DNA from: Treponema primitia ZAS-2
GTDB taxonomy: Bacteria; Spirochaetota; Spirochaetia; Treponematales; Breznakiellaceae
Assembly (NCBI RefSeq): GCF_000214375.1
Contig: NC_015578.1
Location: 2,914,001 to 2,978,000 of the forward strand
Length of the DNA: 64,000 nt
Direction of reading: 5' to 3'
Position numbers and translations under genes: made by a program. Position 1 is the first letter of the stretch. The number at the start of each line of letters is the position of its first letter. The notes under the pieces are model-generated. The model did no database searches and was not told the origin of the DNA. It saw only the letters and a program-made list of their open reading frames with translations. This document shows, one piece after another, positions 38,925 to 51,778 of the stretch.

Positions 38925-40661
38925 ATGCGTATATCAATAGCTCAAATCAATTCTACCATCGGGGACTTTTCCGGCAACCGGGAAAAAATCCTAGGCTTTA
39001 CAAAAAAAGCTCTGGAGGAACATTCGGACCTGATCCTGTTTCCGGAGTTGGCGGTTTGCGGGTACCCCCCCATGGATCTCCTGGATCAGGACAGTTTTGT
39101 GGAAATGAACATCCGTTCCATCCATATACTTCAGCGGGAGCTGCCCCCTGGCATAGCCGTGGGGATAGGCTATGTGAACCGGAATCCCTATGCCGGGGGC
39201 AAGTCCCTGGTCAATGAATACGGGGTGCTGCTGGACGGGAAAATAGCCTTTAGCCAGCTCAAGACCCTGCTCCCCACCTACGACGTGTTTGACGAGGCAC
39301 GGAATTTTGAGCCCTGTCGGGAATGGTCCGCCTTTGAGTACAAAGGGGAGCGAATCGGCATTGCCATTTGCGAGGATGTGTGGCGGGAAACCAGTATCCC
39401 GGGGACCCACTATATCCGGGACCCCGTGGGGGAACTGCTGGACCAGGGCATCAGCCTGCTCTGCGTCCCCTCGGCCTCCCCCTACATGGCGGGAAAACTG
39501 AAGGTCCGCCAGGCCCTGGCTGAACGGATCGCCATCCGGGGCAATATCCCCTTTGTCTACATTAACTCCGTAGGGGCCAACGACTCCATCCTCTTTGACG
39601 GCCGCTCCTTCATCATAGCCCCCACGAAAGATGCCTCCAGGGATGCCTCCCGGAGAAACTACCCAGTGCAGGTCCTGGCCAAAGGCTTTGAGGAAGACCT
39701 GGTAAGCTGGGAAACCGGCACCTCCCTGCAAAACCAAATGCCCGATTTAACCGGGGATGACCCCTTCAAGGTGGGCCTTACCCGGTACGAACTGGACATG
39801 CTGGAGGAAGCCCTTGTAATGGGCATCCGGGATTACATGGACAAGTGCGGCTTCAAGCGGGCTCACCTGGGGCTTTCAGGGGGCATAGACTCCGCCCTGG
39901 TAGCCTACCTGGGGGTCAGGGCAGCGGGCAAGGACAATATCGCCTGTTTCAGCATGCCCTCCCGGTATTCCTCCCAGGGTTCCAAGGACGACGCCAAGGA
40001 GCTGGCGGAAAACCTGGGCTGCCGCTACGAAGTTCTCCCCATAGAAACGGTGTTCACCAGTTTTCTTGGCACCTTGGAGGGGGTTTTTGAAAAACGCCCC
40101 TTTGATATCGCCGAAGAAAACCTCCAGGCCCGTATCCGGGGTACCCTGATGATGGCCTTTTCCAACAAATTCGATTCCATGCTCCTCACCACGGGCAATA
40201 AAAGCGAGCTTGCCATGGGCTACTGCACCCTCTACGGGGACACCAACGGTTCCGTAGGCCCCATCGGCGACCTTTTCAAGACCGAGGTCTTTGCCCTCTG
40301 CAAGCGCATCAACGAGCGGTCCCTTGAGGCGGGAGGCAAGCCCATCATCCCCGAGGCGATCATCGACAAGCCCCCCTCAGCGGAACTGCGGCCCAACCAA
40401 AAGGACCAGGACAGCCTCCCCCCCTACGAAGTGCTGGACGAGATCCTCAAGCTCTACCTGTTCCAGAACCTCTCCAAGGACGAGATCGTCAAGCGGGGCT
40501 GGGATGAGGAACTGGCAGGCCGGATCATCGGCGCCGTGGCCAAGGCGGAGTTCAAGCGCCGCCAGGCCCCGCCGGTACTCAAGGTAAGCCCCCGGGCCTT
40601 CGGCATGGGACGGCGTATGCCCATTGCGCGGCGGGTATACGAGATTGGGGAGGGGAACTGA
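38925..40661 (+). CDS. nadE: Glutamine-dependent NAD+ synthetase
   Basis: The 578-residue enzyme has an N-terminal nitrilase-type glutaminase domain with Glu in LFPELAVCGYPP (~42), Lys in FSQLKTLLPTYDVFDE (~111) and Cys in GIAICEDVW (~148). The C-terminal synthetase domain has the P-loop HLGLSGGIDSALVAYLGV and GTLMMAFSNKFDSMLLTTGNKSELAMGY. Ammonia from glutamine converts deamido-NAD to NAD+. The last ~75 codons are duplicated, with deletions, at 47068-47274. The gene is followed by an inverted repeat and the first surface-protein cassette. Confidence 0.96.
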   Translation: MRISIAQINSTIGDFSGNREKILGFTKKALEEHSDLILFPELAVCGYPPMDLLDQDSFVEMNIRSIHILQRELPPGIAVGIGYVNRNPYAGGKSLVNEYGVLLDGKIAFSQLKTLLPTYDVFDEARNFEPCREWSAFEYKGERIGIAICEDVWRETSIPGTHYIRDPVGELLDQGISLLCVPSASPYMAGKLKVRQALAERIAIRGNIPFVYINSVGANDSILFDGRSFIIAPTKDASRDASRRNYPVQVLAKGFEEDLVSWETGTSLQNQMPDLTGDDPFKVGLTRYELDMLEEALVMGIRDYMDKCGFKRAHLGLSGGIDSALVAYLGVRAAGKDNIACFSMPSRYSSQGSKDDAKELAENLGCRYEVLPIETVFTSFLGTLEGVFEKRPFDIAEENLQARIRGTLMMAFSNKFDSMLLTTGNKSELAMGYCTLYGDTNGSVGPIGDLFKTEVFALCKRINERSLEAGGKPIIPEAIIDKPPSAELRPNQKDQDSLPPYEVLDEILKLYLFQNLSKDEIVKRGWDEELAGRIIGAVAKAEFKRRQAPPVLKVSPRAFGMGRRMPIARRVYEIGEGN

Positions 40662-40685
40662 GGGGGGATCGCGGAATTGAAGAAT

Positions 40686-40815
40686 GAAGATTTACCACAG
40701 AGATAGCAGAAGAGGCACAGAGGACACAGAGGGAAGAAAGGAATAAGCGCACCCCCCTCCCCTCTTCCTCCGTGAGCTCTGCGTTCTTCCTCTGCGCCTC
40801 TGCGGTAAATCTTCC
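40686..40815. repeat. Large imperfect inverted repeat of the TTTACC(A/G)CAGAG type
   Basis: The left arm (GAAGATTTACCACAGAG..GCAGAAGAGGCACAGAGG) is matched in reverse complement by the right arm (CCTCTGCGCCTCTGCGGTAAATCTTC). The arms are ~50 nt with mismatches around a pyrimidine-rich centre. Such CACAGAGG-rich palindromes are dispersed in many bacterial genomes. RNA from it could fold into one long stem after nadE. Confidence 0.8.
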
Positions 40816-40975
40816 ATTTTACCAGTCTACTAAAAAAGCGCAGTAAAAAAACCTCTTTTTTACTAAACCTCCTATTCCTCCTTTCTCGCTCCCTGTGGTA
40901 TACTCAAACCAGATTACCGTCCAAGGGCTAATAGAAAAAACCAGGAGTATAATAAAATTGTATAATTCTTTGTAC

Positions 40976-41005
40976 TGTAACGAATTACCCCCCCCCCCCC
41001 CCCCC
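40976..41005 (+). promoter_or_regulatory. Poly-C promoter of surface cassette 1 (C18)
   Basis: The word TTGTACTGTAACGAATTA precedes 18 consecutive C (40988-41005). Aligned with the second cassette, TGTAAC (40976-40981) corresponds to its TATAAT -10, so the tract covers the presumed transcription start. Tract length is likely to vary by slippage. The OMP gene starts 73 nt downstream. Confidence 0.65.
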
Positions 41006-41077
41006 ATTTTTTATGCAATAAAAAAGTTTGCCCTAGCAAGTCCGATTCTCCCGGTGTTTCCGAAGGGGGAAACGGTC

Positions 41078-42145
41078 ATGCGTAAAATCCTATTGGGGTG
41101 CCTTATCCTGTTGAATACCGGCCTTTTCTGTTTTGCCCAGGAAGCGGTGCCCTTCGATGAGGCCCTGCAGGATACCCTGCATTATTTAAGCGCCAAGATA
41201 CCGGACAATTCCACTGTCGTAGCCCTAAACGTCCAGTCCGATTCTCCCGACCTGGCTGAATATGTGATCGACGAAATACACGCCTATACGGTGGATACGG
41301 ATCTCTTTACCATGGTGGACCCCCAGCATTTAGCCCCCCCATTATCCGGAGAACTGAGCGATGAAATGGTTCAAACCATTGGCGAAAAACTAGGCGCCCA
41401 GACCATACTGTCCGTGACCATTTCCTATACCGATAGTTTTTACCGGCTCCGGGTCCAGGCCATTGATGTTCAGTCCGCCAAGATTCAGGGCAGCCGGACT
41501 GTAACTATCGTCCCAAACCAACTCTTGGATTCCTTAACAGGGAAGAGCCATAATACTGCCACTCCGGGGGAATTAAAGCTATTGTATCTGGGGGTACGGG
41601 GGGGCCTTTCCACCCATTTCTATACCCTGGATAAATCCTATTGGGGAGACGGCCGGGAAGCTTCGGTTTCCTGGTCCGGGGATTTTGCAGCCCAGCTATC
41701 GTACCAGTTTTTTACCCACTTTGCCCTGCAAACGGAAGCAGTTTTTATGGGGGATATGCTGGTTACAAAAAATGGCACCCTGGCATCCTTCAGCAACGCT
41801 ACGGTGATGCTCCCCCTGTTGGCAAAATTCACCTTCTATCCCCGGCTCTTTTCCTTCTCCGTCTTTGGGGGAGCTTATTGTTCTATTCCCCTGCAAGCAA
41901 TGACCTTTCGTATTGCAGACAGTGACTACGAATATAATTACTCGGCGCCCTTTGGGTTGATCCTCGGCGGGACCATGGGCATAAAACTGGGGCCCGGAAC
42001 CCTGTTTGGGGATATCCGGTTTGCTACGGACCTGCAGGCCACCGGGCTTTCCGGCCCCTGGGGCGACCTGGATGTATATAAACGAAATATGCTTTTTTAT
42101 TCCCTTGGTTATGAACTGGGGTTTATCAAGCGGGGAAGGAAATAG
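41078..42145 (+). CDS. Outer-membrane protein: CsgG/LpoB-like N-terminal domain plus small beta-barrel
   Basis: The 355-residue protein begins with a signal peptide (MRKILLGCLILLNTGLFCFAQ). Residues ~25-150 resemble the lipoprotein-type domain common in treponemes (IPDNSTVVALNVQSDSPDLAEYVIDEI, GELSDEMVQTIGEKLGAQTILSVTI). The C-terminal ~180 residues alternate hydrophobic and aromatic strands (LYLGVRGGLSTHFYTL ... YSLGYELGFIKRG), consistent with an eight-strand OMP barrel. ATG at 41078 follows GGGGG. It lies 4 nt before the first lipoprotein gene and directly downstream of the C18 tract. It may anchor or present the lipoproteins; function is otherwise unknown. Confidence 0.7.
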   Translation: MRKILLGCLILLNTGLFCFAQEAVPFDEALQDTLHYLSAKIPDNSTVVALNVQSDSPDLAEYVIDEIHAYTVDTDLFTMVDPQHLAPPLSGELSDEMVQTIGEKLGAQTILSVTISYTDSFYRLRVQAIDVQSAKIQGSRTVTIVPNQLLDSLTGKSHNTATPGELKLLYLGVRGGLSTHFYTLDKSYWGDGREASVSWSGDFAAQLSYQFFTHFALQTEAVFMGDMLVTKNGTLASFSNATVMLPLLAKFTFYPRLFSFSVFGGAYCSIPLQAMTFRIADSDYEYNYSAPFGLILGGTMGIKLGPGTLFGDIRFATDLQATGLSGPWGDLDVYKRNMLFYSLGYELGFIKRGRK

Positions 42146-42148
42146 ATT

Positions 42149-43771
42149 ATGAAAATGAAATTGAATCAATTACTGCCGTTCGTTGTACTGCCGGCACTAT
42201 TGTTGCTGCATTCCTGCATAGGCACGCTTGACAGTACGGATCCCAAACACCTGTTGGACCAGAGCGGCCCCCAGGCGCCAAGCTTGGCGGCCATTAGCAT
42301 TTCCAAGATGCCGACTAAGCTCCAATACGCTTTAAACGAAGCTTTTGACCGATCCGGCCTTGAGGTCACCGGCGCCTATACCGACAGCACTACACAGGCC
42401 GAAACCATAGAGGATTCCGATATTACCGGCTTTGATTCTACCAGCCCGGGAACTAAAACCATTACGGTTACTAAAGGCGGAAAAACCGCCACCTTTACGC
42501 TTATCGTCAGCCCCCAGGCGGCGGATCCTGTTCTGGTGGCTATTACCATTTCTACACTCCCGGCAAAGTTGCAGTACAACATTGGTGAGCTTTTTGTCTG
42601 GACCGGCCTTACCGTAACCGGGACCTACAGCGACGGCAGAACCCAGGCCGAGACCATAGAAGATTCCGATATTACCGGCTTTGATTCTACCAGCCCGGGG
42701 ACTAAAACCATTACGGTTACTAAGGGCGAAAAAACCGCCACCTTTGCCGTTATCGTCAGCCCTCAGGCGGCAAATCCTGTTCTGGCGGCTATTACCATTT
42801 CTACACTCCCGGCAAAGCTGCAGTACAACATTGGTGAATCTTTTGCCCGGACCGGCCTTACCGTAAGCGGGATCTATACCAACGGCAGCACCCTGGCCGA
42901 AACCATAGAGGATGCCGATATTACCGGCTTTGATTCTACCAGCCCGGGGACTAAAACCATTACGGTTACTAAGGGCGAAAAAACCGCCACCTTTGCAGTT
43001 ATTGTCAGCCCCCAGGCGGGATCTCCCGTCCTGGCAGCTATTACCATTTCCAAACTCCCGGCAAAGCTGCAGTACAACATTGGCGAAGCTTTTGTCCGGA
43101 CCGGCCTTACCGTTATCGGTACCTATACCGACGGCAGGACACAAACCGAAACCATAGAGGATGCCGATATTACCGGCTTTGATTCCACAAGCGCCGGAAC
43201 AAAAATGATTACCATTACTAAAGGCGGAAAAACTGCTATCTTCGCGGTTACCATTAACACGCCTATACCGGCAGCAACTTTGGCGGCTATTACCATTTCC
43301 TCCCTGCCTAGGATATTACGGTACAATATTGGCGATCCTTTTAACCCAGACGGCCTTATCGTTACCGGTACCTATACCGGTGGCATCACAAAGACCGAAG
43401 CCATAAACAGCTTGAATATTACCGGCTTCGATTCCACAAGCCCCGGAACAAAACCGATTACCATTACTAAAGGCGGAAAAACCGCCGTGTTTGCAGTTAT
43501 CGTGAACCCCAATACCGGGTCCGGAGGTATCACCCTGATACCCCCGCCTGCAACAACAGAAATAAGCATCACTAAATTTTCGGCAGACCAACTGGAAGCA
43601 TCCTTTGGTTTTAACAACTATCAATGGTTTGTGGATGGCCATGCTGCCGCCTTAGTCGACCTTAGCAGTGGTGACAGAACCCTTACCTTAAGCCCGGGGA
43701 AACATCAAGTATGGATAACAGCCTATAAACAGGGCGTACCCTATTCAGCGGCAATTACCATTGAACTATAG
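42149..43771 (+). CDS. Surface lipoprotein with five Big_3-type Ig-like repeats (cassette 1, gene A)
   Basis: The 540-residue protein has a lipobox LLLLHSC (Cys ~23). Five repeats of 83 residues follow at an exact 249-bp DNA period: each contains KLQYNIGE.F..TGL.V.GTY.DG and DITGFDSTSPGTK.ITVTKG..TA.FAVIV, the pattern of bacterial Ig-like group 3 domains. The last ~85 residues form a separate domain (YQWFVDG ... KHQVWITAYKQGVPYSAAITIEL), shared with the lipoprotein at 47721. Repeats 1-3 are almost identical in DNA, so copy number may change by recombination. It is likely exported to the cell surface for adhesion or binding. Confidence 0.85.
   Translation: MKMKLNQLLPFVVLPALLLLHSCIGTLDSTDPKHLLDQSGPQAPSLAAISISKMPTKLQYALNEAFDRSGLEVTGAYTDSTTQAETIEDSDITGFDSTSPGTKTITVTKGGKTATFTLIVSPQAADPVLVAITISTLPAKLQYNIGELFVWTGLTVTGTYSDGRTQAETIEDSDITGFDSTSPGTKTITVTKGEKTATFAVIVSPQAANPVLAAITISTLPAKLQYNIGESFARTGLTVSGIYTNGSTLAETIEDADITGFDSTSPGTKTITVTKGEKTATFAVIVSPQAGSPVLAAITISKLPAKLQYNIGEAFVRTGLTVIGTYTDGRTQTETIEDADITGFDSTSAGTKMITITKGGKTAIFAVTINTPIPAATLAAITISSLPRILRYNIGDPFNPDGLIVTGTYTGGITKTEAINSLNITGFDSTSPGTKPITITKGGKTAVFAVIVNPNTGSGGITLIPPPATTEISITKFSADQLEASFGFNNYQWFVDGHAAALVDLSSGDRTLTLSPGKHQVWITAYKQGVPYSAAITIEL
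42290..43507 (+). repeat. Five 249-bp direct repeats coding Ig-like units
   Basis: The word GATATTACCGGCTTTGATTC recurs at 42419, 42668, 42917 and 43166, and as AATATTACCGGCTTCG at 43415, each 249 bp apart. The first three copies are nearly identical over long stretches. The fifth is most diverged. Confidence 0.95.
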
Positions 43772-43780
43772 GAGAAAAAA

Positions 43781-46700
43781 ATGAAACCGAATACAGCGCA
43801 CCCAACAGGATTATTCCTTATCACAGTCTTTTTTATAAGCACTCTCTACATGGGCTGTAACAACCCCATACAGGGAACATACAACAGCCCCGGGCCTGAC
43901 AAGGGGATAGTGCTGGTAAACATCGGCGCTAACCAGCGCACCTTAATGCCCATTGCCCTGGAGACTTACAAATTTATCTTTGTGTCTGCGGGGAAGGCGG
44001 ATGTTATTGCGTATGCCAATGGCACGTCCCTGCAGATTGAACTGGAGACCGGCGCCTGGGACCTTACGGTAGTTGGGCTGGCGGAAGGGGCACCTGACGA
44101 GGAAGAACCATTGCTCCGGGGTGAAAAAACTCGTATTAATGTAACTGCGGGCGGTATAAGCGCTGTAACAATAAACCTAACGCCCCAGATCCTTGAAGGA
44201 GAGGGGACTTTACAGTATACAATTAGTTTTCCGGATACCGTAACTGAGGCATCACTGAAACTTTCCCCACTGACAAACAAGGCTAGTGATCCACCTATTG
44301 ATCCGATTAATTTATTATCCGGCGCCAATTCTTCCGAGGGTTTTTATACAATAGAAGGAACCCAGGATTTTGCCACAGGGTATTACTATCTAACCATTGA
44401 CCTCTATGACGGCGCTATCGGGGCCTCAGGCTGGACCACAAAAACTGAGGTGGTACATATTTACAAGGACCGGAAAACAAGCACTGGGGATGAGTATAAT
44501 TTTACCGGGGATGATTTTACCTCAACCGAAGCCGCTAGCGTGAATGACGACAGAAGTCTTAAAGATGTGTTAAATTACATTAGGGCAGCCGGTGGTACGG
44601 ATTTTACGATAATTATGAAGAAGGACGAATCGGGATTTGAACCTTACGACCTGGATTATTCTTTTGCAGGTACAAGTAAGCGTATAACCATACGGGGGAA
44701 CGGGAATACCATAACCCTTGCGGATGAGCCCCATGATGGTGCAATCTTTTCCTTAAGTACTCCCAACATTACACTGATTTTAAAAAATATTATCCTTGAA
44801 GGCCGGGGGACAGAAAAAGATAATAACCAGGCCCTCATTTACATTTCCAACGGTAATCTTATTGTGGAAAATGGAATTATTACGGGTAATAAAAACTGCG
44901 GCGGGAGTGGCGGCGGCGTACGTGTAGGCGGCGGAACCTTTCTTCTGCGGGGCGGGCAAATCAGCGGCAATACAGCCTCCACCGTTTCAGGCCCTTCCTG
45001 TGGCGGCGGGGTGTATGTAGATAGCAGCGGCAGTTTCATCATGCAAGGTGGGCAAATCAGCGGCAATACAGCCTCCGCCAATACAGGTCTTTCCTATGGT
45101 GGTGGGCTGTATGTAGCTAGCAGCAATGGTTTCATCCTGCGGGGTGGGCAAATCAGCGACAACACAACCTCCGCCGTTTCAGGCCCTTCCTCTGGCGGCG
45201 GGGTATATGTAGCCAACGGCAACTTCTCCATGCAGGGCGGACAAATCAATGGTAACAAAGTCTCCTCCGATTTAGCTGATTCTCACGGTGGCGGGGTATA
45301 TGTAGCCAACGGATCCTTTGTCATAGTCAATGGCATAATCAGTGAAAACGAAATCGTCAGTTCAAGTACTACTTCTTCCGGCGGCGGAGTGCATGTAGGT
45401 AGCGCTTTCTCCATGCAGGGCGGACAAATCAGCGACAACATAATCTCCGCCGATACAAATACCTTCGGTGGCGGAGTATTCGTAGGCAACGGATCCTTTG
45501 CCATAGTCGATGGCATAATCAGTGGCAACACAGCCTCCGCCAATACAGGTTCTTCCGACGGCGGCGGGGTGTATGTAGCCAACGGTAATTTCAATATGCC
45601 GGGTGGACAAATCAATAAAAACGAAGCCTCCTCCACTTCAGGTCAGTCCCGCGGCGGTGGGGTATTTGTAGATAGCTCCGGTGAGTTCACTATGCGGGGC
45701 GGAGAGATCAGTGGCAACGAAGCCTCCTCCAATTCAAATACTTCCGACGGCGGGGGGGTGTATGTACAAGGCGGCATTTTTATCATACAGGGCGGAGAGA
45801 TCAATACCAACAAAGCCTCCTCCACCGCCAGTCCAGCCTTCGGCGGTGGGGTATATGTAGGTAGCGGTGAGTTCACCATGCGAGGCGGACAGATCAATGG
45901 AAACACAGCTTCCAGTTCAGGAAGTACTTCCCACGGTGGTGGAGTATATTTAGAAAGCGGTGATTTCACTATACATAGTGGAAAGATCAATACTAACAAT
46001 GCCTTGGCATATTCAAGTTCTTCCTCCGGCGGCGGGGTGCATGTAGGTTTCACCGGTGATTTCACCATGCTGAACGGGGAAATCAGCGGCAACCAAGCCT
46101 TGGCCGATTCAGGCCCCCTCGGCGGAGGGGTATTCGTAAACGGCGGAGCCTTTCGTATGGAAGATGGAATAATCAGCGGCAATACAGTCTCCGCCAATTC
46201 AAATTCCTCCGGTGGCGGAGTATATGCAAATTCTTTCGCGGAAAGTATTACTATGCAGGGTGGGGAAATCAGCGACAATACAGTTCGCGCAAATTCAGGT
46301 TATTCCAACGGTGGCGGAATATTTGTAATATCTTCCTCTGATTTCACCATGCTGGGCGGACAAATCAATGGCAACACAGCCTCCGCTGATTCAGGCAATT
46401 CCTATGGCGGCGGGGTGTATACAAATTCTAACACACCCTTCAACATGGTGTATGGAATAATCAACGGTAACACAGCATCCTTCGGCGGCGGGGTGCATCT
46501 AGACTACAACAGCACTTTCGCCATGCAAAATGGAGTAATCAGCGGCAACAGTGCGTCCCATCGCGGCGGCGGGGTGTCTTCATTATCCGGAACTTTCACT
46601 ATGCAGGACGGGCAAATTAAAAGCAACACGGCGCCCATCGGTAGCGGAGTGTATGTTTCGGCCTACGCAACCTTCATCATGAAAGATGCGCGGATCGATT

Positions 46701-46996
46701 TTTCTAATGCAGTTTGTTTAGATTTCGACAGTGCAATTCCTGCCTACTTCTCAAGTATTACTACAAGGGACTTCACCGACATCGATCCTATTGCCGTGAT
46801 TGATCTTGCTGTGTATCCCGAGGCTGATTATCATTATTGGGAAAATAAAGAAATACTGAAACAAGTCCCAGGATACGGAGAGATTCCAAATGACCGGTTC
46901 ATCCTGGGAAATTTTGTTTCAGCATACCCCGATTACACTAAGACACCCATTGTAGAATACAAAATACATACCGATGGAACACTGGTAACGGAATAG
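43781..46996 (+). CDS. Giant lipoprotein with ~20 GGGVYV beta-helix repeats (cassette 1, gene B)
   Basis: The 1071-residue protein has a lipobox-like LYMGC (Cys ~27). Residues ~40-245 form an N-terminal module (RTLMPIALETYKFIF, AWDLTVVGLAE, GYYYLTIDLYDG, TEVVHIYKD) shared with the protein at 49577. Residues ~300-400 lead into about 20 units of ~31-34 residues with consensus GGGVYV..G.FTM.GGQISGNTAS, as in polymorphic outer-membrane/right-handed beta-helix proteins. Units 1-19 have GGG, the last GSG. The C-terminal ~100 residues are not repetitive. It has no obvious autotransporter barrel, so lipid anchoring is the likely attachment. GGAG precedes the ATG. Confidence 0.85.
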   Translation: MKPNTAHPTGLFLITVFFISTLYMGCNNPIQGTYNSPGPDKGIVLVNIGANQRTLMPIALETYKFIFVSAGKADVIAYANGTSLQIELETGAWDLTVVGLAEGAPDEEEPLLRGEKTRINVTAGGISAVTINLTPQILEGEGTLQYTISFPDTVTEASLKLSPLTNKASDPPIDPINLLSGANSSEGFYTIEGTQDFATGYYYLTIDLYDGAIGASGWTTKTEVVHIYKDRKTSTGDEYNFTGDDFTSTEAASVNDDRSLKDVLNYIRAAGGTDFTIIMKKDESGFEPYDLDYSFAGTSKRITIRGNGNTITLADEPHDGAIFSLSTPNITLILKNIILEGRGTEKDNNQALIYISNGNLIVENGIITGNKNCGGSGGGVRVGGGTFLLRGGQISGNTASTVSGPSCGGGVYVDSSGSFIMQGGQISGNTASANTGLSYGGGLYVASSNGFILRGGQISDNTTSAVSGPSSGGGVYVANGNFSMQGGQINGNKVSSDLADSHGGGVYVANGSFVIVNGIISENEIVSSSTTSSGGGVHVGSAFSMQGGQISDNIISADTNTFGGGVFVGNGSFAIVDGIISGNTASANTGSSDGGGVYVANGNFNMPGGQINKNEASSTSGQSRGGGVFVDSSGEFTMRGGEISGNEASSNSNTSDGGGVYVQGGIFIIQGGEINTNKASSTASPAFGGGVYVGSGEFTMRGGQINGNTASSSGSTSHGGGVYLESGDFTIHSGKINTNNALAYSSSSSGGGVHVGFTGDFTMLNGEISGNQALADSGPLGGGVFVNGGAFRMEDGIISGNTVSANSNSSGGGVYANSFAESITMQGGEISDNTVRANSGYSNGGGIFVISSSDFTMLGGQINGNTASADSGNSYGGGVYTNSNTPFNMVYGIINGNTASFGGGVHLDYNSTFAMQNGVISGNSASHRGGGVSSLSGTFTMQDGQIKSNTAPIGSGVYVSAYATFIMKDARIDFSNAVCLDFDSAIPAYFSSITTRDFTDIDPIAVIDLAVYPEADYHYWENKEILKQVPGYGEIPNDRFILGNFVSAYPDYTKTPIVEYKIHTDGTLVTE
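44900..46700 (+). repeat. ~20 tandem 93-105-bp coding repeats (GGGVYV beta-helix units)
   Basis: Units contain GGCGGCGGGGT(A/G)TATGTA and CAAATCAGCGGCAATACAGCCTCC-like words at ~100-bp intervals, with many third-position differences. They are protein repeats and not a CRISPR array, because they continue one open frame of 1071 codons. Confidence 0.9.
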
Positions 46997-47006
46997 TAAA
47001 ATTAAC

Positions 47007-47067
47007 ACCCCCGCTGCTTGCATGCGGCGGGGCTGGTTAAAAAAAGGTGACTGTCACCACTTTTTCG
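47007..47067 (+). terminator. Two hairpins after cassette 1
   Basis: CCCCGCTGC with GCGGCGGGG (47011-47034) is followed by GGTGACTGTCACC (47047-47059) and ACTTTTTC. The second, with its T-run, is terminator-like. The nadE-derived fragment begins directly after it at 47068. Confidence 0.6.
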
Positions 47068-47274
47068 GTGCTGGACGAGATCCTCAAGCTCTACCTATTC
47101 CAGAACCTCTCCAAGGACGAGATCGTCAAGCGGGCTGGGATGAGGAACTTGGCCAAGGCGGAATTCAAGCGCCGCCAGGCCCCGCCGGTGCTCAAGGTAA
47201 GCCCCCGGGCCTTCGGCATGGGCCGGCGTATGCCCATAGCGCGGCGGGTGTACGAGATTGGGGAGGGGAATTAG
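47068..47274 (+). pseudogene. nadE: Duplicated, internally deleted 3' end of nadE
   Basis: The sequence from GTGCTGGACGAGATCC to GAGATTGGGGAGGGGAA matches 40431-40659 nearly base for base. Differences include loss of one G in the AAGCGGGGCTGGG region and an in-frame-restoring loss of ~23 nt, so VKRGWDEELAGRIIGAVAKAEF becomes VKRAGMRNLAKAEF. No start codon with a ribosome-binding site or upstream nadE sequence is present. It is a remnant of a segmental duplication marking the start of cassette 2. Confidence 0.92.
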
Positions 47275-47554
47275 GGGGAAGATGAATAACCACTAAGGAT
47301 ACAAGAGGGGGGAAAGTAACAAGCGCACCGTTCTCAATTTCATTCGCATATTGTCGCAAAATGTGAATGATCGGAATGGCAGTCAATTTAGGGTTAATAT
47401 CAGCAGCGGTAAATCTTCCCCAAAATATTTTACCTTTTTTCATAAAATTCTACCCGTTTTTCCCTTCTCTGTGGTATACTCCTACACAAGCTGTTATCCA
47501 ACGGCTGGCAGGGGAACAAGCAGGACAATGATAGATTTGTGTAATTCCTTGTAT

Positions 47555-47582
47555 TATAATGAATTAGCACCCCCCCCCCCCC
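47555..47582 (+). promoter_or_regulatory. Poly-C promoter of surface cassette 2 (C13)
   Basis: TATAAT (47555-47560) is followed by GAATTAGCA and 13 C (47570-47582). The preceding TTGTGTAATTCCTTGTAT aligns with TTGTATAATTCTTTGTAC at cassette 1. The tract begins 9 nt after the -10, i.e. in the first transcribed bases. A convincing -35 is missing. Confidence 0.7.
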
Positions 47583-47637
47583 ATTTATGGGCGTGTAAAT
47601 ACTTCTTTCTTAGACAGTTTATATCATCATTTAACGG

Positions 47638-47660
47638 TACCTGGAAACAGGTATTTTTTT
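47638..47660 (+). terminator. Attenuator-like terminator in the cassette 2 leader
   Basis: TACCTG, GAAA loop, CAGGTA, then seven T (47654-47660). It lies between the poly-C promoter and the start of the lipoprotein gene at 47721, so it could stop transcripts before the gene unless relieved. Confidence 0.75.
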
Positions 47661-47720
47661 GTCTCTTTTATCCCAGATGCCGGATCGAATATTCCGGATT
47701 AACTATATAAGGAGAAACGA

Positions 47721-49562
47721 ATGAAGAAAAAGAGAATTTTGGAAGCGAAAAACGCCTTTTTGCCGGCCCTTGGGTTGTTGGTATTAGGCGGCCTTCTGGT
47801 TCTGGCCGGGTGTGATTCCTCAACGAATCCTACCCCAACCCCACTAATCGGCTTCTATACGGTCACCGTAGTGCAATCCACCGGTGGAACCATTTCGGCA
47901 AGCCCCAATACCGCCGTGGCGGCGGGAACCACCGTTACCGTCACGGTGACCCCTGATACAGAGTATGTGTTTACCGAGGGAAGTCTGGCATACAATGGCA
48001 TACCAATAGCTGCCGGGGTCTACACGTTTCCCATGCCCGCAGCAAATGTAACGGTTACCGGGTCATTCACCCACACTTATACGATCACTCCAAGCGCCGG
48101 CATTCAACACGGAAGTATTTCGGCGGATTCCCCTGCGAAAGTGGGAGATACCGTTACCATCACGGTGACCCCTGATCCGGGGTATGTGTTGGGAACCCTG
48201 ACATACAACGACGGGACAGACCATACCATCACCGGGACTTCCTTTACCATGCCCGCAGCCAATGTGACCATCACCGGGACATTCATCTCTGATGGAACAC
48301 CCCTGTTTGCAGTTACCATAGCCTCCGGCATTACCAATGGAACCATTACGGCAAGCCACTCAACCGGCGTAGCAGCGACAACCACCGTTACCGTCACCGC
48401 TGCCCCTGCTACTGGGTATGAGTTGACAAGCCTGGTATACAACGATGGGACAGACCATGCCATCACCGGAACTTCCTTTACCATGCCCGCAGCCAATGTG
48501 ACAATTACCGGGACATTCAGCTTAAGTAGCGAGACCAACCACTCAGTCACCGTAGCTTCCGGCATTACCAATGGAACCATTTCGGCAAGCCCCTTCCAAG
48601 ATGTGGCAGCAGGAACCACTGTTACCGTCACCGTTACCCCTGCTACTAAGTATGAGTTGACGCCGGGATCCCTGAAATACAACGACGGGACAGACCATAC
48701 CATCACCGGTAATTCCTTTACCATGCCCGCAGCCAATGTGACAATCACCGGGGCATTCCGCTTAATTAGCGGGACCAACACCTATTCAGTCATCCTGCTC
48801 CAAGTCACCGGCGGAACCATTTCGGCAAGCCCCAATACCGCCGTGACAGAAGGTACATCTGTTACCGTTACTGCGAACCCTTATTCGGGATATGAGTTGA
48901 AATCGGGAACCCTGAAATACAACAATGGGACGACAGCCACTCTCATCACCGATAATTCCTTTACCATGCCCGCAGCCGATGTGACGATTACCGGGGAATT
49001 CAGCTTAATTCCCATACCCGTCCAATCAATAAGCCTCCCTGCAAACATTGAGCTTATCCCCACCGGTACATTGCAGCTAAACGCTATCGTATCCCCGGAT
49101 ACCGCCACCAACAAAACCCTTACCTGGACATCCAGTGACAGCAGCAAAGCTACGGTTACCACCAACGGGTTGGTGAAAGGCGTAAGCGTAGGTACAGCAA
49201 TAATCACCGCCACAGCCGCAGACGGCAGCGGAAAAAAGGCTGAGTGCACAGTAACGGTTAAAGACGGCAAGCAGTTGTCCTTTACCTTTGAAGGGTTTAA
49301 TAACCAAACCATTGATCTCACCAAAAGTACAAATAACGATATTTCCCTAAGCAATACCAGCCAAAGTCCGCTCCAAATAACCTTAGTGGGGGACTGGAAT
49401 TCTATAGGCTGGTACGTGGATGGGGAGCAGCGCGGGTCTGGCAGCAGCTCTTTTGTTTTCGATCTTTACAACTCTGCCGTCGGAGAGCATACGGTTACCG
49501 TGGTTGTGTATAAGGGCATTGTTCCGTATTCAAAGGAACTGAAATTCCGGGTAGTTAAATAA
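47721..49562 (+). CDS. Surface lipoprotein with five InlB-B-type repeats and a Big_2 domain (cassette 2, gene A)
   Basis: The 613-residue protein has a lipobox LLVLAGC (Cys ~31). Five repeats of ~70-78 residues follow (T.GTISASP...AGTTVTVTVTP..GYEL..L.YNDGT, ending SFTMPAANVTITGTF), the divergent InlB B-repeat pattern. After them comes one Big_2-type Ig-like domain (SISLPANIELIPTGTLQLNAIVSP ... ATVTTNGLVKGVSVGTAIITATA). The final ~90 residues (IGWYVDG ... GEHTVTVVVYKGIVPYSKELKF) match the C-terminal domain of the protein at 42149. So the body differs but the end is the same. AAGGAG precedes the ATG. Confidence 0.87.
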   Translation: MKKKRILEAKNAFLPALGLLVLGGLLVLAGCDSSTNPTPTPLIGFYTVTVVQSTGGTISASPNTAVAAGTTVTVTVTPDTEYVFTEGSLAYNGIPIAAGVYTFPMPAANVTVTGSFTHTYTITPSAGIQHGSISADSPAKVGDTVTITVTPDPGYVLGTLTYNDGTDHTITGTSFTMPAANVTITGTFISDGTPLFAVTIASGITNGTITASHSTGVAATTTVTVTAAPATGYELTSLVYNDGTDHAITGTSFTMPAANVTITGTFSLSSETNHSVTVASGITNGTISASPFQDVAAGTTVTVTVTPATKYELTPGSLKYNDGTDHTITGNSFTMPAANVTITGAFRLISGTNTYSVILLQVTGGTISASPNTAVTEGTSVTVTANPYSGYELKSGTLKYNNGTTATLITDNSFTMPAADVTITGEFSLIPIPVQSISLPANIELIPTGTLQLNAIVSPDTATNKTLTWTSSDSSKATVTTNGLVKGVSVGTAIITATAADGSGKKAECTVTVKDGKQLSFTFEGFNNQTIDLTKSTNNDISLSNTSQSPLQITLVGDWNSIGWYVDGEQRGSGSSSFVFDLYNSAVGEHTVTVVVYKGIVPYSKELKFRVVK

Positions 49563-49576
49563 GGAGGAATGGAAAC

Positions 49577-51778
49577 ATGAAAAGAAACAATTCACTATTT
49601 GCGGTAGTTTCCGCAGTAAGCCTTTGGGGTCTCCTCTTCCTTGGGGGATGCTCCAATCTATTAACCCCTTCCCAACAGGATACCAGCACAGGGAAGGTGA
49701 CCATCAGCGTGATCGGGGAGGATGCGGCAGCCCGTACCCTCTACCCGGATGCTCAATTTTCAAAATATGAACTCATCTTCAAGCAGGGCGGCGAAGTGAA
49801 AAGAATAGAAACCCTGCTGAACGGGAAAGCATCTGTGGTCATTACGGGCCTTGCGGCTGAGGTTTGGGATATCACGGCTGTAGGCTATGTAGAAATACTG
49901 GTCGAAAGGGAAGGTAAAAAAGAATTCGCCGCTGCCGAGGGAACACAGACAGTGGACATCGCTACAAATTCATCCATCTCCATTCCCATAAGCGCAACCC
50001 AGGAAGGCCCCGACGGGTATTTATCCTGGAACATAAGCTTTCCGGAAGAAAAGGTTGATAGCGCCTATTTGCAGCTCACTCTGATGGACGGCTCTTGGGG
50101 GGGGACGGATATATACCTGAATCTTATTTCAGCGCCAGAGAACCGTTCCGGCCAGACGTCGCTCCCCCCGGGGTATTATCTTGCCCAGGTCCGCCTGGAA
50201 AATGGATACCAGGAAGCCGGCCATACCGAGGTGATCCATATCTATTCCAATATGGAAACCAGGGCAGACTATACCTACACCGCCGGGGACTTCGCCGATT
50301 TTATCACCCTAAGCGGTACGGCGACTGTTAAGCTTAACAATGTAACACCCGATTTCACACAAATATCTCTCTTTGCCAATGAAAACCGTAACGGCAATCC
50401 ACTGGGCTCTAGCCGGATCAATCCTGATGGAACATGGTCCATAAACTTGCTGCCCTTTGCATCATCAACCACCCTGTACGCTTGGGTAAGTGCAAACATC
50501 TACACCATCGGCGGCCCCAGCATTTCCCAATGGAAATACGTCGGACCAATAGACAATATTTACAATGCAAACAAAACCATTCCTCTGGGCAATATTGATA
50601 TCAATACCATCACCCTGGGCGGCACAGCGAATGTAACGGTTACTGGCGCCACGCTCCAGTATTTACAAGTAACCGCCTACAGTCAAAGCGGCAACTATAG
50701 TTCCTGGTTAGGGAGCGGCCCTGTGGATAGTTCGGGGCACTGGTCCATAAACGTCTCCCCCCTGAATGCTTCCACAGAGGTACGCTTTGACATAAGTGTA
50801 AATGCCCTTGGAGGCGGTTATTTCGAGCGGGAAACCGAAATTACAAGATCCGTCTCTACTACCAGTATACTCGACATTGATTTAGGTTCCATTCCGCTGA
50901 ACCTTATCACCCTGAGCGGCACGGCGAATGTCACCTATAACGGTTTTCCGCCAGCCAATGCGCAGCTATCTCTCTATGCCAATGAAAACCGTAATGGCGA
51001 TCAGTTGGGCAGGGGCCAGATCAATACTTCTACCAGAACCTGGTCCATACTCATGGAAGCCCAGTCTTCACCAACCACCCTGTATCCCTGGGTATATGTA
51101 AGCAGCGGCGGCAGCAGCCCTGGGCAGGAGAAATACATCGGAACACCCATCACTGGCGGTAATGTAACCCAAGACGGTTTTACCCTGGGCAACATTGATA
51201 TTAGTTCTGTCACCCTGAGCGGTACCATATCAGGCACAGTGGACGGCAAGTCCCCTGACGGAGCTACGGTGTTGGCTTTTGCTGCGGATAATACCTTTAT
51301 AGGAGAAGCCGGGGTTCAAGCAAGCGGCAACTGGTCCATGTCGGTCGAAGCCATCAATACTACCGTACATTTCAGCGTTTTGATAGAGCAAGGTTATTCT
51401 CAGGTCCTCATACCCCTGGACTCAAGTTACAACAGGACGATTACTGTCAGCAGCGGTGCTTCCGGTATCAACATGAACGGATTGTCCTTTACAACCAAAT
51501 CATTGACCGTTACGGTTCCGGTGATCGGGATGGTAATTGTTACGAATTCCAAAATCCTCAGCTCCGATATTAGCCAAGAAGCGCCTTATTCGAAAATAAT
51601 CGCCATGGCCCAAGGAGTGAATTCCTTCGCACTGAGGGTTCCCCAGGATACATCTTCGGTTTACTTCACTGTTATGACTGAAAGCAATGATGTTTATATG
51701 AGCAGTTCAGCTGTTAATTATGCTGCCAGTATAACCCTGAACCTTTCGCAGATGGAAAAACTGTCCATGCCATGGTAA
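49577..51778 (+). CDS. Surface lipoprotein with shared N-terminal module and four ~100-residue beta repeats (cassette 2, gene B)
   Basis: The 733-residue protein has a lipobox LLFLGGC (Cys ~25). Residues ~35-235 (RTLYPDAQFSKYELIF, VWDITAVGYVE, LSWNISFPEEKVDSAYLQL, GYYLAQVRLENG, TEVIHIYSN) correspond to the N-terminal module of the protein at 43781. Four repeats then follow with I(T/S)LSGTANVT, LSLYANENRNG..LG, INPDGTWSI and KYIG..LGNIDI patterns. The last ~110 residues are unique. GGAGG lies 9 nt before the ATG at 49577 and 14 nt after the previous stop, so the two genes are one operon ended by a strong terminator. Confidence 0.87.
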   Translation: MKRNNSLFAVVSAVSLWGLLFLGGCSNLLTPSQQDTSTGKVTISVIGEDAAARTLYPDAQFSKYELIFKQGGEVKRIETLLNGKASVVITGLAAEVWDITAVGYVEILVEREGKKEFAAAEGTQTVDIATNSSISIPISATQEGPDGYLSWNISFPEEKVDSAYLQLTLMDGSWGGTDIYLNLISAPENRSGQTSLPPGYYLAQVRLENGYQEAGHTEVIHIYSNMETRADYTYTAGDFADFITLSGTATVKLNNVTPDFTQISLFANENRNGNPLGSSRINPDGTWSINLLPFASSTTLYAWVSANIYTIGGPSISQWKYVGPIDNIYNANKTIPLGNIDINTITLGGTANVTVTGATLQYLQVTAYSQSGNYSSWLGSGPVDSSGHWSINVSPLNASTEVRFDISVNALGGGYFERETEITRSVSTTSILDIDLGSIPLNLITLSGTANVTYNGFPPANAQLSLYANENRNGDQLGRGQINTSTRTWSILMEAQSSPTTLYPWVYVSSGGSSPGQEKYIGTPITGGNVTQDGFTLGNIDISSVTLSGTISGTVDGKSPDGATVLAFAADNTFIGEAGVQASGNWSMSVEAINTTVHFSVLIEQGYSQVLIPLDSSYNRTITVSSGASGINMNGLSFTTKSLTVTVPVIGMVIVTNSKILSSDISQEAPYSKIIAMAQGVNSFALRVPQDTSSVYFTVMTESNDVYMSSSAVNYAASITLNLSQMEKLSMPW

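Follow-up and report, generated by a model that had tools for sequence, protein, structure and literature searches.

What do two long runs of cytosines do when they stand behind the same flanking sequence, a few kilobases apart, in the genome of Treponema primitia ZAS-2 (CP001843; 4,059,867 bp, 50.8% GC; PMC5039349)? The window, i.e., the whole 64-kb stretch of DNA that was analysed, holds just two C-runs of at least 9 nucleotides, C18 at 40988-41005 (copy 1) and C13 at 47570-47582 (copy 2). The flank reads TTGTATAATTCTTTGTA in copy 1 and TTGTGTAATTCCTTGTA in copy 2, which confirms letter for letter the consensus that the original prediction placed ahead of both tracts; also as described there, copy 2 carries TATAAT at 47555-47560, nine nucleotides (GAATTAGCA) and then the C-run. 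From these features the original prediction derived a poly-C promoter retained independently at two cassettes, with tract lengths that may reflect different expression states. We consider it more probable, at roughly 0.78, that the feature is a phase-variable leader open reading frame (ORF) switched by its poly-C tract.

Two features upstream of the tracts bear on their origin.

38925-40661: nadE proper, preceding copy 1
47066-47276, + strand: duplicated 3′-end fragment of the NAD synthase gene upstream of copy 2, near-identical in alignment over about 150 bp

Since the 3′ end of nadE is duplicated upstream of copy 2, the two window copies are not independent and go back to a single origin, the duplicated segment having apparently carried promoter, leader and tract. 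The intergenic and promoter DNA next to the nadE fragment has diverged strongly although the fragment itself has remained near-identical to the parental gene, a contrast that may reflect recent gene conversion or rapidly changing intergenic DNA. The argument from independent retention to function thus loses its premise of independence, although six further copies in T. primitia and about 48 in relatives do speak for function.

Indeed, the genome-wide search for the flank and a C tract that the original prediction proposed showed that the window copies are not the only ones, which clearly removes the absence of other copies, one of the observations that would have refuted it. Eight flank copies adjoin a C-run in this one finished genome; the run (C7 to C21) follows the flank in six of them (the window pair, 1565012, 2111792, 3241792 and 3530621) and precedes a related sequence in the other two (253587 and 427790). 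The 18-mer TTGTRYWRTAAYGAATTA is found four times, letter for letter, in the 4.06 Mb genome, and GAATTA-N0-4-C9 occurs six times vs. none in the reversed control. The latter pattern was present in 10 of the 57 genomes tested, all of one family, with one relative giving three reversed-control matches. A degenerate pattern of flank plus tract retrieved 36 stretches among 84,980 prokaryote genomes, 35 of them from Spirochaetes metagenome-assembled genomes (MAGs) of Treponema or Spirochaetaceae/Spirochaetia, whose sample codes point to termite and cockroach guts; the 36th, at a contig end in one Bacteroidetes MAG, is probably a chance match. In all, 56 copies were collected as the family set, of which 47 distinct ones served for column and pair statistics. 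When C11+ runs were scanned with the flank unconstrained, many were found in these genomes, often 10-20 codons past a ribosome-binding site (RBS) and ATG. Several T. primitia tracts, plus those of genomes G015 and G023, also have a right-hand arm in common (CGATAGGTTTACTAGGATATA), which is read as DRFTR or IGLLGY in two of the registers and brings a stop at once in the third. The shared flank and C tract are therefore supported as a functional-looking, recurrent phase-variation element before surface-protein genes, whose expression state should depend on tract length.

The copy 2 locus is laid out as follows.

47470-47480, + strand: candidate extended -10 promoter TGTGGTATACT, the same 11-mer as in copy 1 within otherwise diverged upstream DNA
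47528-47710, + strand: predicted leader ORF at C13, translated as MIDLCNSLYYNELAPPPPHLWACK...GLTI, stop TAA at 47708-47710
47543-47566, + strand: conserved codons NSLYYNEL (the shared flank and TATAAT of the original prediction), with third-position variation over 56 copies
47570-47582, + strand: C13 tract, in-frame proline codons and putative register switch, judged from the leader stops per register
47636-47662, + strand: intrinsic-terminator-like hairpin GGTACCTGGAAACAGGTATT and T-run within the leader, -9.9 kcal/mol, z -2.8
47721-49562, + strand: putatively controlled gene, a 613-aa lipoprotein with signal peptide ending LVLAGC and its own Shine-Dalgarno (SD) sequence AGGAG
49577-51778, + strand: second gene of the operon, a 733-aa lipoprotein with Big_6

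The leader could start at ATG 47528 or at TTG 47537, the latter aligned with the start of copy 1, and an SD-like AGGGGA/AGGA lies upstream. TATAAT is here part of the codons TAT-TAT-AAT (Tyr-Tyr-Asn). The predicted leader ends at 47710 with C13, at 47598 with C14 and at 47702 with C15 (native coordinates). The C14 leader stops 38 nt ahead of the hairpin at 47636-47655, which only 2 of 200 shuffles equalled, whereas the C13 and C15 leaders cross it and end 10-18 nt short of the lipoprotein ATG; repeat number thus shifts the stop from before to past a predicted terminator, as in loci of the pil1 type discussed below. All three registers end short of the 613-aa lipoprotein gene itself, which places copy 2 outside the in-ORF class of contingency loci. 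This protein has InlB-type repeats (Flg_new_2), Big_2 and a BiPBP_C-like end according to Pfam. By the register model, copy 2 as sequenced would be in an open register, and one extra C would bring an early stop.

At the copy 1 locus the corresponding features are these.

40894-40904: the same 11-mer TGTGGTATACT, upstream of copy 1
40943-40960, + strand: SD AGGAG (40943-40947) and leader start TTG (40958-40960), read from the sequence
40958-42145, + strand: predicted leader, MYNSLYCNELPPPPPPIFYAIKKF..., which at C18 shares the frame of the outer-membrane-like gene
40988-41005, + strand: C18 tract
41078-42145, + strand: putatively controlled gene, an outer-membrane-like protein with its own ATG at 41078 and signal peptide MRKILLGCLILLNTGLFCFA
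42149-43771, + strand: lipoprotein of the same operon with five Big_3 domains (Pfam)
43781-46996, + strand: 1071-aa lipoprotein of the same operon with GGGVYV-type repeats

A Pfam search gave no match for the outer-membrane-like protein or for the 1071-aa lipoprotein, and hairpin and T-run prediction found no clear terminator between the tract and the gene. With C18 the tract lies near the 5′ end and the register opens the full protein, as at in-ORF contingency loci, so that the leader would read through as an N-terminal extension, which would be an odd one. With C19 the leader stop falls at 41085, overlapping the ATG of the outer-membrane-like gene, to which it would couple, and with C20 it comes early, at 41021. 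As sequenced, copy 1 would also be in an open register, closed by two extra C; the original suggestion that lengths of 18 and 13 reflect different expression states is thus at odds with the register model, which puts both copies in open registers.

That the flank is shaped as codons follows from where the copies differ. Its pattern, AAT-TCC-TTR-TAY-NRY-AAN-GAA-TTA, corresponds to the leader peptide consensus start-(N/K)SL(Y/C)x(N/K)EL-poly-Pro, in which the proline run is the C tract. In the set gathered without flank constraint (10 sites), 34% of cells differ at third codon positions and 11% at the first two; the corresponding values are 33% and 11% in the set with GAATTA alone fixed (9 sites), and 35% and 4.5% in a third set when its free columns are taken. 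In both window copies, and in most of the family, the C tract is traversed by a leader ORF with its own RBS and start, some of the start calls being without a good SD. Strict conservation of the NEL peptide was rejected as a full account: the best start calls fall in the NEL frame in 31 of 53 copies and in a second open (ATT) frame in about 22, the latter including all three copies whose NEL frame contains a stop. In our reading, the module began as a leader in the NEL frame and has at times been put to use in a different one; this would be tolerable because the tract can reset the downstream frame. In two paralogous T. primitia loci (L104 at 253559 and L106 at 427767), the C tract (C20 and C17) stands ahead of a related peptide (NCLYSKEL and NCLYHKEL), not behind it. 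Another T. primitia tract, C19 at 3365979 (L130, G000:C1), follows a good RBS-ATG leader (MKITLDRLIGNTVSL) and has an GATAGGTTTACTAGGATATA arm; all three of its registers end within 28 nt, a misfit to the simple model. T. primitia also has 61 consecutive C followed by an AC repeat (L128, G000:C1:279759-279819), near which the leader stops within 52 nt in all registers.

What tract length does was addressed by computing the leader stop for n, n+1 and n+2 C's, with dinucleotide shuffles of the downstream DNA as control (n = 46). The longest register reached at least 200 nt in 27/46 loci (9.1±2.6 in shuffles) and the shortest was at most 20 nt in 39/46 (25.8 in shuffles); both counts are somewhat inflated by the presence, among the 46, of a few near-duplicate loci of one genome. 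Usually, one or two registers are long and the others stop within tens of bases. The long register is fused to a signal peptide that has no start of its own in the 2111792 copy (L020, with +2C), L162, L172, L177, L231 and L233, as well as at two non-NEL tracts (L205 and L246); the 2111792 copy, L172, L177, L205 and L231 are organized as in-ORF contingency loci. In the 1565012 copy (L006), L148, L164, L182, L198 and L240, it ends over the downstream ATG. At five loci (L169, L181, L187, L194 and L235) the long register encodes short tandem repeats (e.g., TPDLGVT, SQENKAF, REKSSF), likely a second variable element of these leaders.

These patterns suggest the following mechanism. A short ORF with its own RBS would encode start-...-NSLYYNEL-poly(Pro), and replication slippage, presumed from the type of tract, would alter the tract length and with it the reading frame 3′ of the tract. 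The long register could then act in three ways: by in-frame fusion to a signal peptide, of lipoprotein or porin-like type, that lacks a start codon (i), by ending over or beside the downstream start codon and thereby allowing translational coupling (ii), or by carrying ribosomes across an intrinsic terminator in the leader so that termination fails (iii). Copy 2 would best fit (iii) plus (ii), with C13, the sequenced state, and C15 ON, and with C14 leaving the hairpin free and hence OFF.

The part of this scheme that invites most discussion is termination. The first 220 nt 3′ of each tract were scanned on the sense strand for hairpins followed by a T-run. In the NEL set, 19 were found in 49 leader regions, vs. 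3 on the antisense strand, 7.2±2.4 in shuffles and 4.2 in random windows; among the 18 for which a start was called, 16 have one or more registers that end ahead of the hairpin and one or more that run past it. An independent non-NEL set gave 11 vs. 3.7±1.5 in shuffles. It could be argued that in-frame phase variation and translational coupling suffice, the hairpins being incidental or reflecting ordinary termination. This narrower form of the leader explanation, which does not exclude it, is rather unlikely in our view. On the one hand, a terminator is unnecessary at fusion-type loci, terminator-like hairpins are absent from most leader regions, and the antisense strand of the non-NEL set has nearly as many (8). 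On the other hand, sense hairpins of the NEL set exceed both antisense and shuffles, L164 and L198 hold very strong hairpins (-25 to -33 kcal/mol) within the long register, and the T. primitia paralogues at 253587 and 427790 have kept a terminator hairpin through two compensatory double changes, one turning A-U into G-C and the other A-U into C-G. For copy 2 taken alone, we hold the terminator step to be evenly balanced: its hairpin is modest (-9.9 kcal/mol) and lies only about 100 nt from the start codon, and terminators within 100 bp of the beginning of a coding region can be efficient, even under translation (PMC4824070).

An unlikely alternative returns to the promoter. In Treponema pallidum, a poly-G tract in the promoters of tprE/G/J/L and tp0126 alters transcription initiation (PMC7864442), and the C tracts of T. 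primitia might likewise tune initiation through their length, as proposed by analogy with tprE/G/J and tp0126. The genus thus offers a precedent for homopolymers by the 5′ ends of outer-membrane protein genes, and also a caution, since the initial annotation of tp0126 made its ORF too long until 5′-RACE redefined it (PMC7864442). Moreover, copy 2 has TATAAT, and a weak sigma-70-like match is present there. However, this is one match vs. 1.3 in shuffles, so that sigma-70 promoters at the tract show no excess, and TATAAT is unconserved, being TGTAAC in copy 1 and T/C-N-A/G-T/C-A-A in flank columns 13-18 over the 47 distinct copies. The flank instead carries the codon periodicity described above and usually sits just 3′ of a start codon, register-dependent ORF ends differ strongly from shuffles, and a separate promoter-like TATACT is conserved upstream. 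The tract of T. primitia would therefore lie in a translated leader, unlike the promoter tract of T. pallidum; the poly-C promoter of the original prediction is improbable, and the true promoter may lie further upstream, the candidate being TGTGGTATACT, conserved in both copies and present just 5 times in the T. primitia genome.

Less probable still is a flank that acts as a palindromic operator or RNA hairpin beside the C tract, bound by a regulator or structural. In T. primitia the flank does extend to a 25-bp near-palindrome (TAATTCcTTgTAtTaTAAtGAATTA), its copies being near-perfect 12-1-12 palindromes, and a palindrome search matched 32 sites, against a single one in the reversed control. 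This reading was rejected by the pair statistics over the 47 distinct copies, which reveal no covariation: pair 7-19 forms in 6% of cells, pair 10-16 forms less often than in shuffles (32 vs. 37), and variable pairs are paired 145 times vs. 152 expected. In addition, several matches without a C tract adjoin tRNA-like sequence and look like ordinary stem-loops. The near-palindrome thus appears incidental to the coding flank. A search of 40500-48000 against Rfam gave no known RNA family. AT-rich palindromes such as TAACTCCTTACGTTGTAAGGAATTA also occur at T. primitia 1946913, 1980260, 2171175 and 3414957 (L115, L117, L120 and L124), at least some of them beside tRNA-like sequence; they probably resemble the flank by chance and are stem-loops or terminators. 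Finally, that the runs are non-functional, as assembly noise or neutral C-runs beside a duplicated segment, is scarcely credible: errors are frequent in long homopolymers and numerous MAG contigs break off at them, but the eight copies in a finished genome, the 35/36 Spirochaetes matches and the register statistics all speak against it.

The leader switch favoured here has its closest counterpart in Streptococcus gallolyticus, where changes in GCAGA repeat number lengthen the leader peptides of pil1 and pil3, and a terminator that would end transcription prematurely is disrupted by the ribosomes (Danne et al., 2014; PMC3894217). In both systems a repeat lies in a leader ORF, slippage moves (here, would move) the stop and a terminator is left free or covered, with surface adhesins under control in pil1 and pil3; even the spacing agrees, as the low state of pil1 stops 39-49 bp ahead of the terminator and copy 2 at C14 would stop 38 nt ahead. 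The attenuation form predicted here thus matches the pil1 mechanism, which is experimentally proven in S. gallolyticus (PMC3894217). Whereas the pil loci use GCAGA pentamers within one species group, the present module uses poly-C over many loci and genera, its tract encodes poly-proline behind a conserved NSLYxNEL flank, and in many copies the leader instead joins a signal peptide or stops at the following start codon. Fusion-type copies are of the kind known from in-ORF contingency loci of Neisseria, Helicobacter and Campylobacter, where a 5′-end homopolymer sets the frame by its length modulo 3; that standard scheme, however, has no leader flank and no coupling or attenuator versions such as those met here. 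The Escherichia coli pyrBI attenuator is another parallel, the pyrL leader ORF also spanning an intrinsic terminator, although control there is by UTP or EF-P and here would be by DNA slippage. A PPPPPP run placed ahead of pyrL raises termination in cells without EF-P (PMC5021804). By analogy, the proline run may slow ribosomes, and tract length could, speculatively, have a graded effect through EF-P.

We tentatively extend these observations, at somewhat less than even odds, to a lineage-specific, dispersed cassette, RBS-start-NSLYxNEL-polyC, that would have spread in gut treponemes and made many operons of surface lipoproteins and porin-like proteins phase-variable, partly through slippage-controlled attenuation and possibly with an additional graded, EF-P-dependent setting by poly-Pro length. 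A search of open-access literature returned no report of phase variation in termite spirochaetes. Phase variation has been studied mostly in pathogens. The presence of a common, apparently reusable slippage switch on many surface-protein operons of a symbiont from the termite gut, and of its relatives, points to a role for surface variability in the gut too, and the attenuator form, known experimentally from S. gallolyticus, would appear here as a widespread strategy. Since T. primitia is a cultured species, the switch can be tested. Among the proteins concerned, unrelated lipoproteins behind different tracts (42149-43771, 47721-49562 and that of L113) have a common C-terminal segment, W-[FY]-[VI]-D-G ... 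P-[YW]-[ST], suggesting domain shuffling among switched surface proteins.
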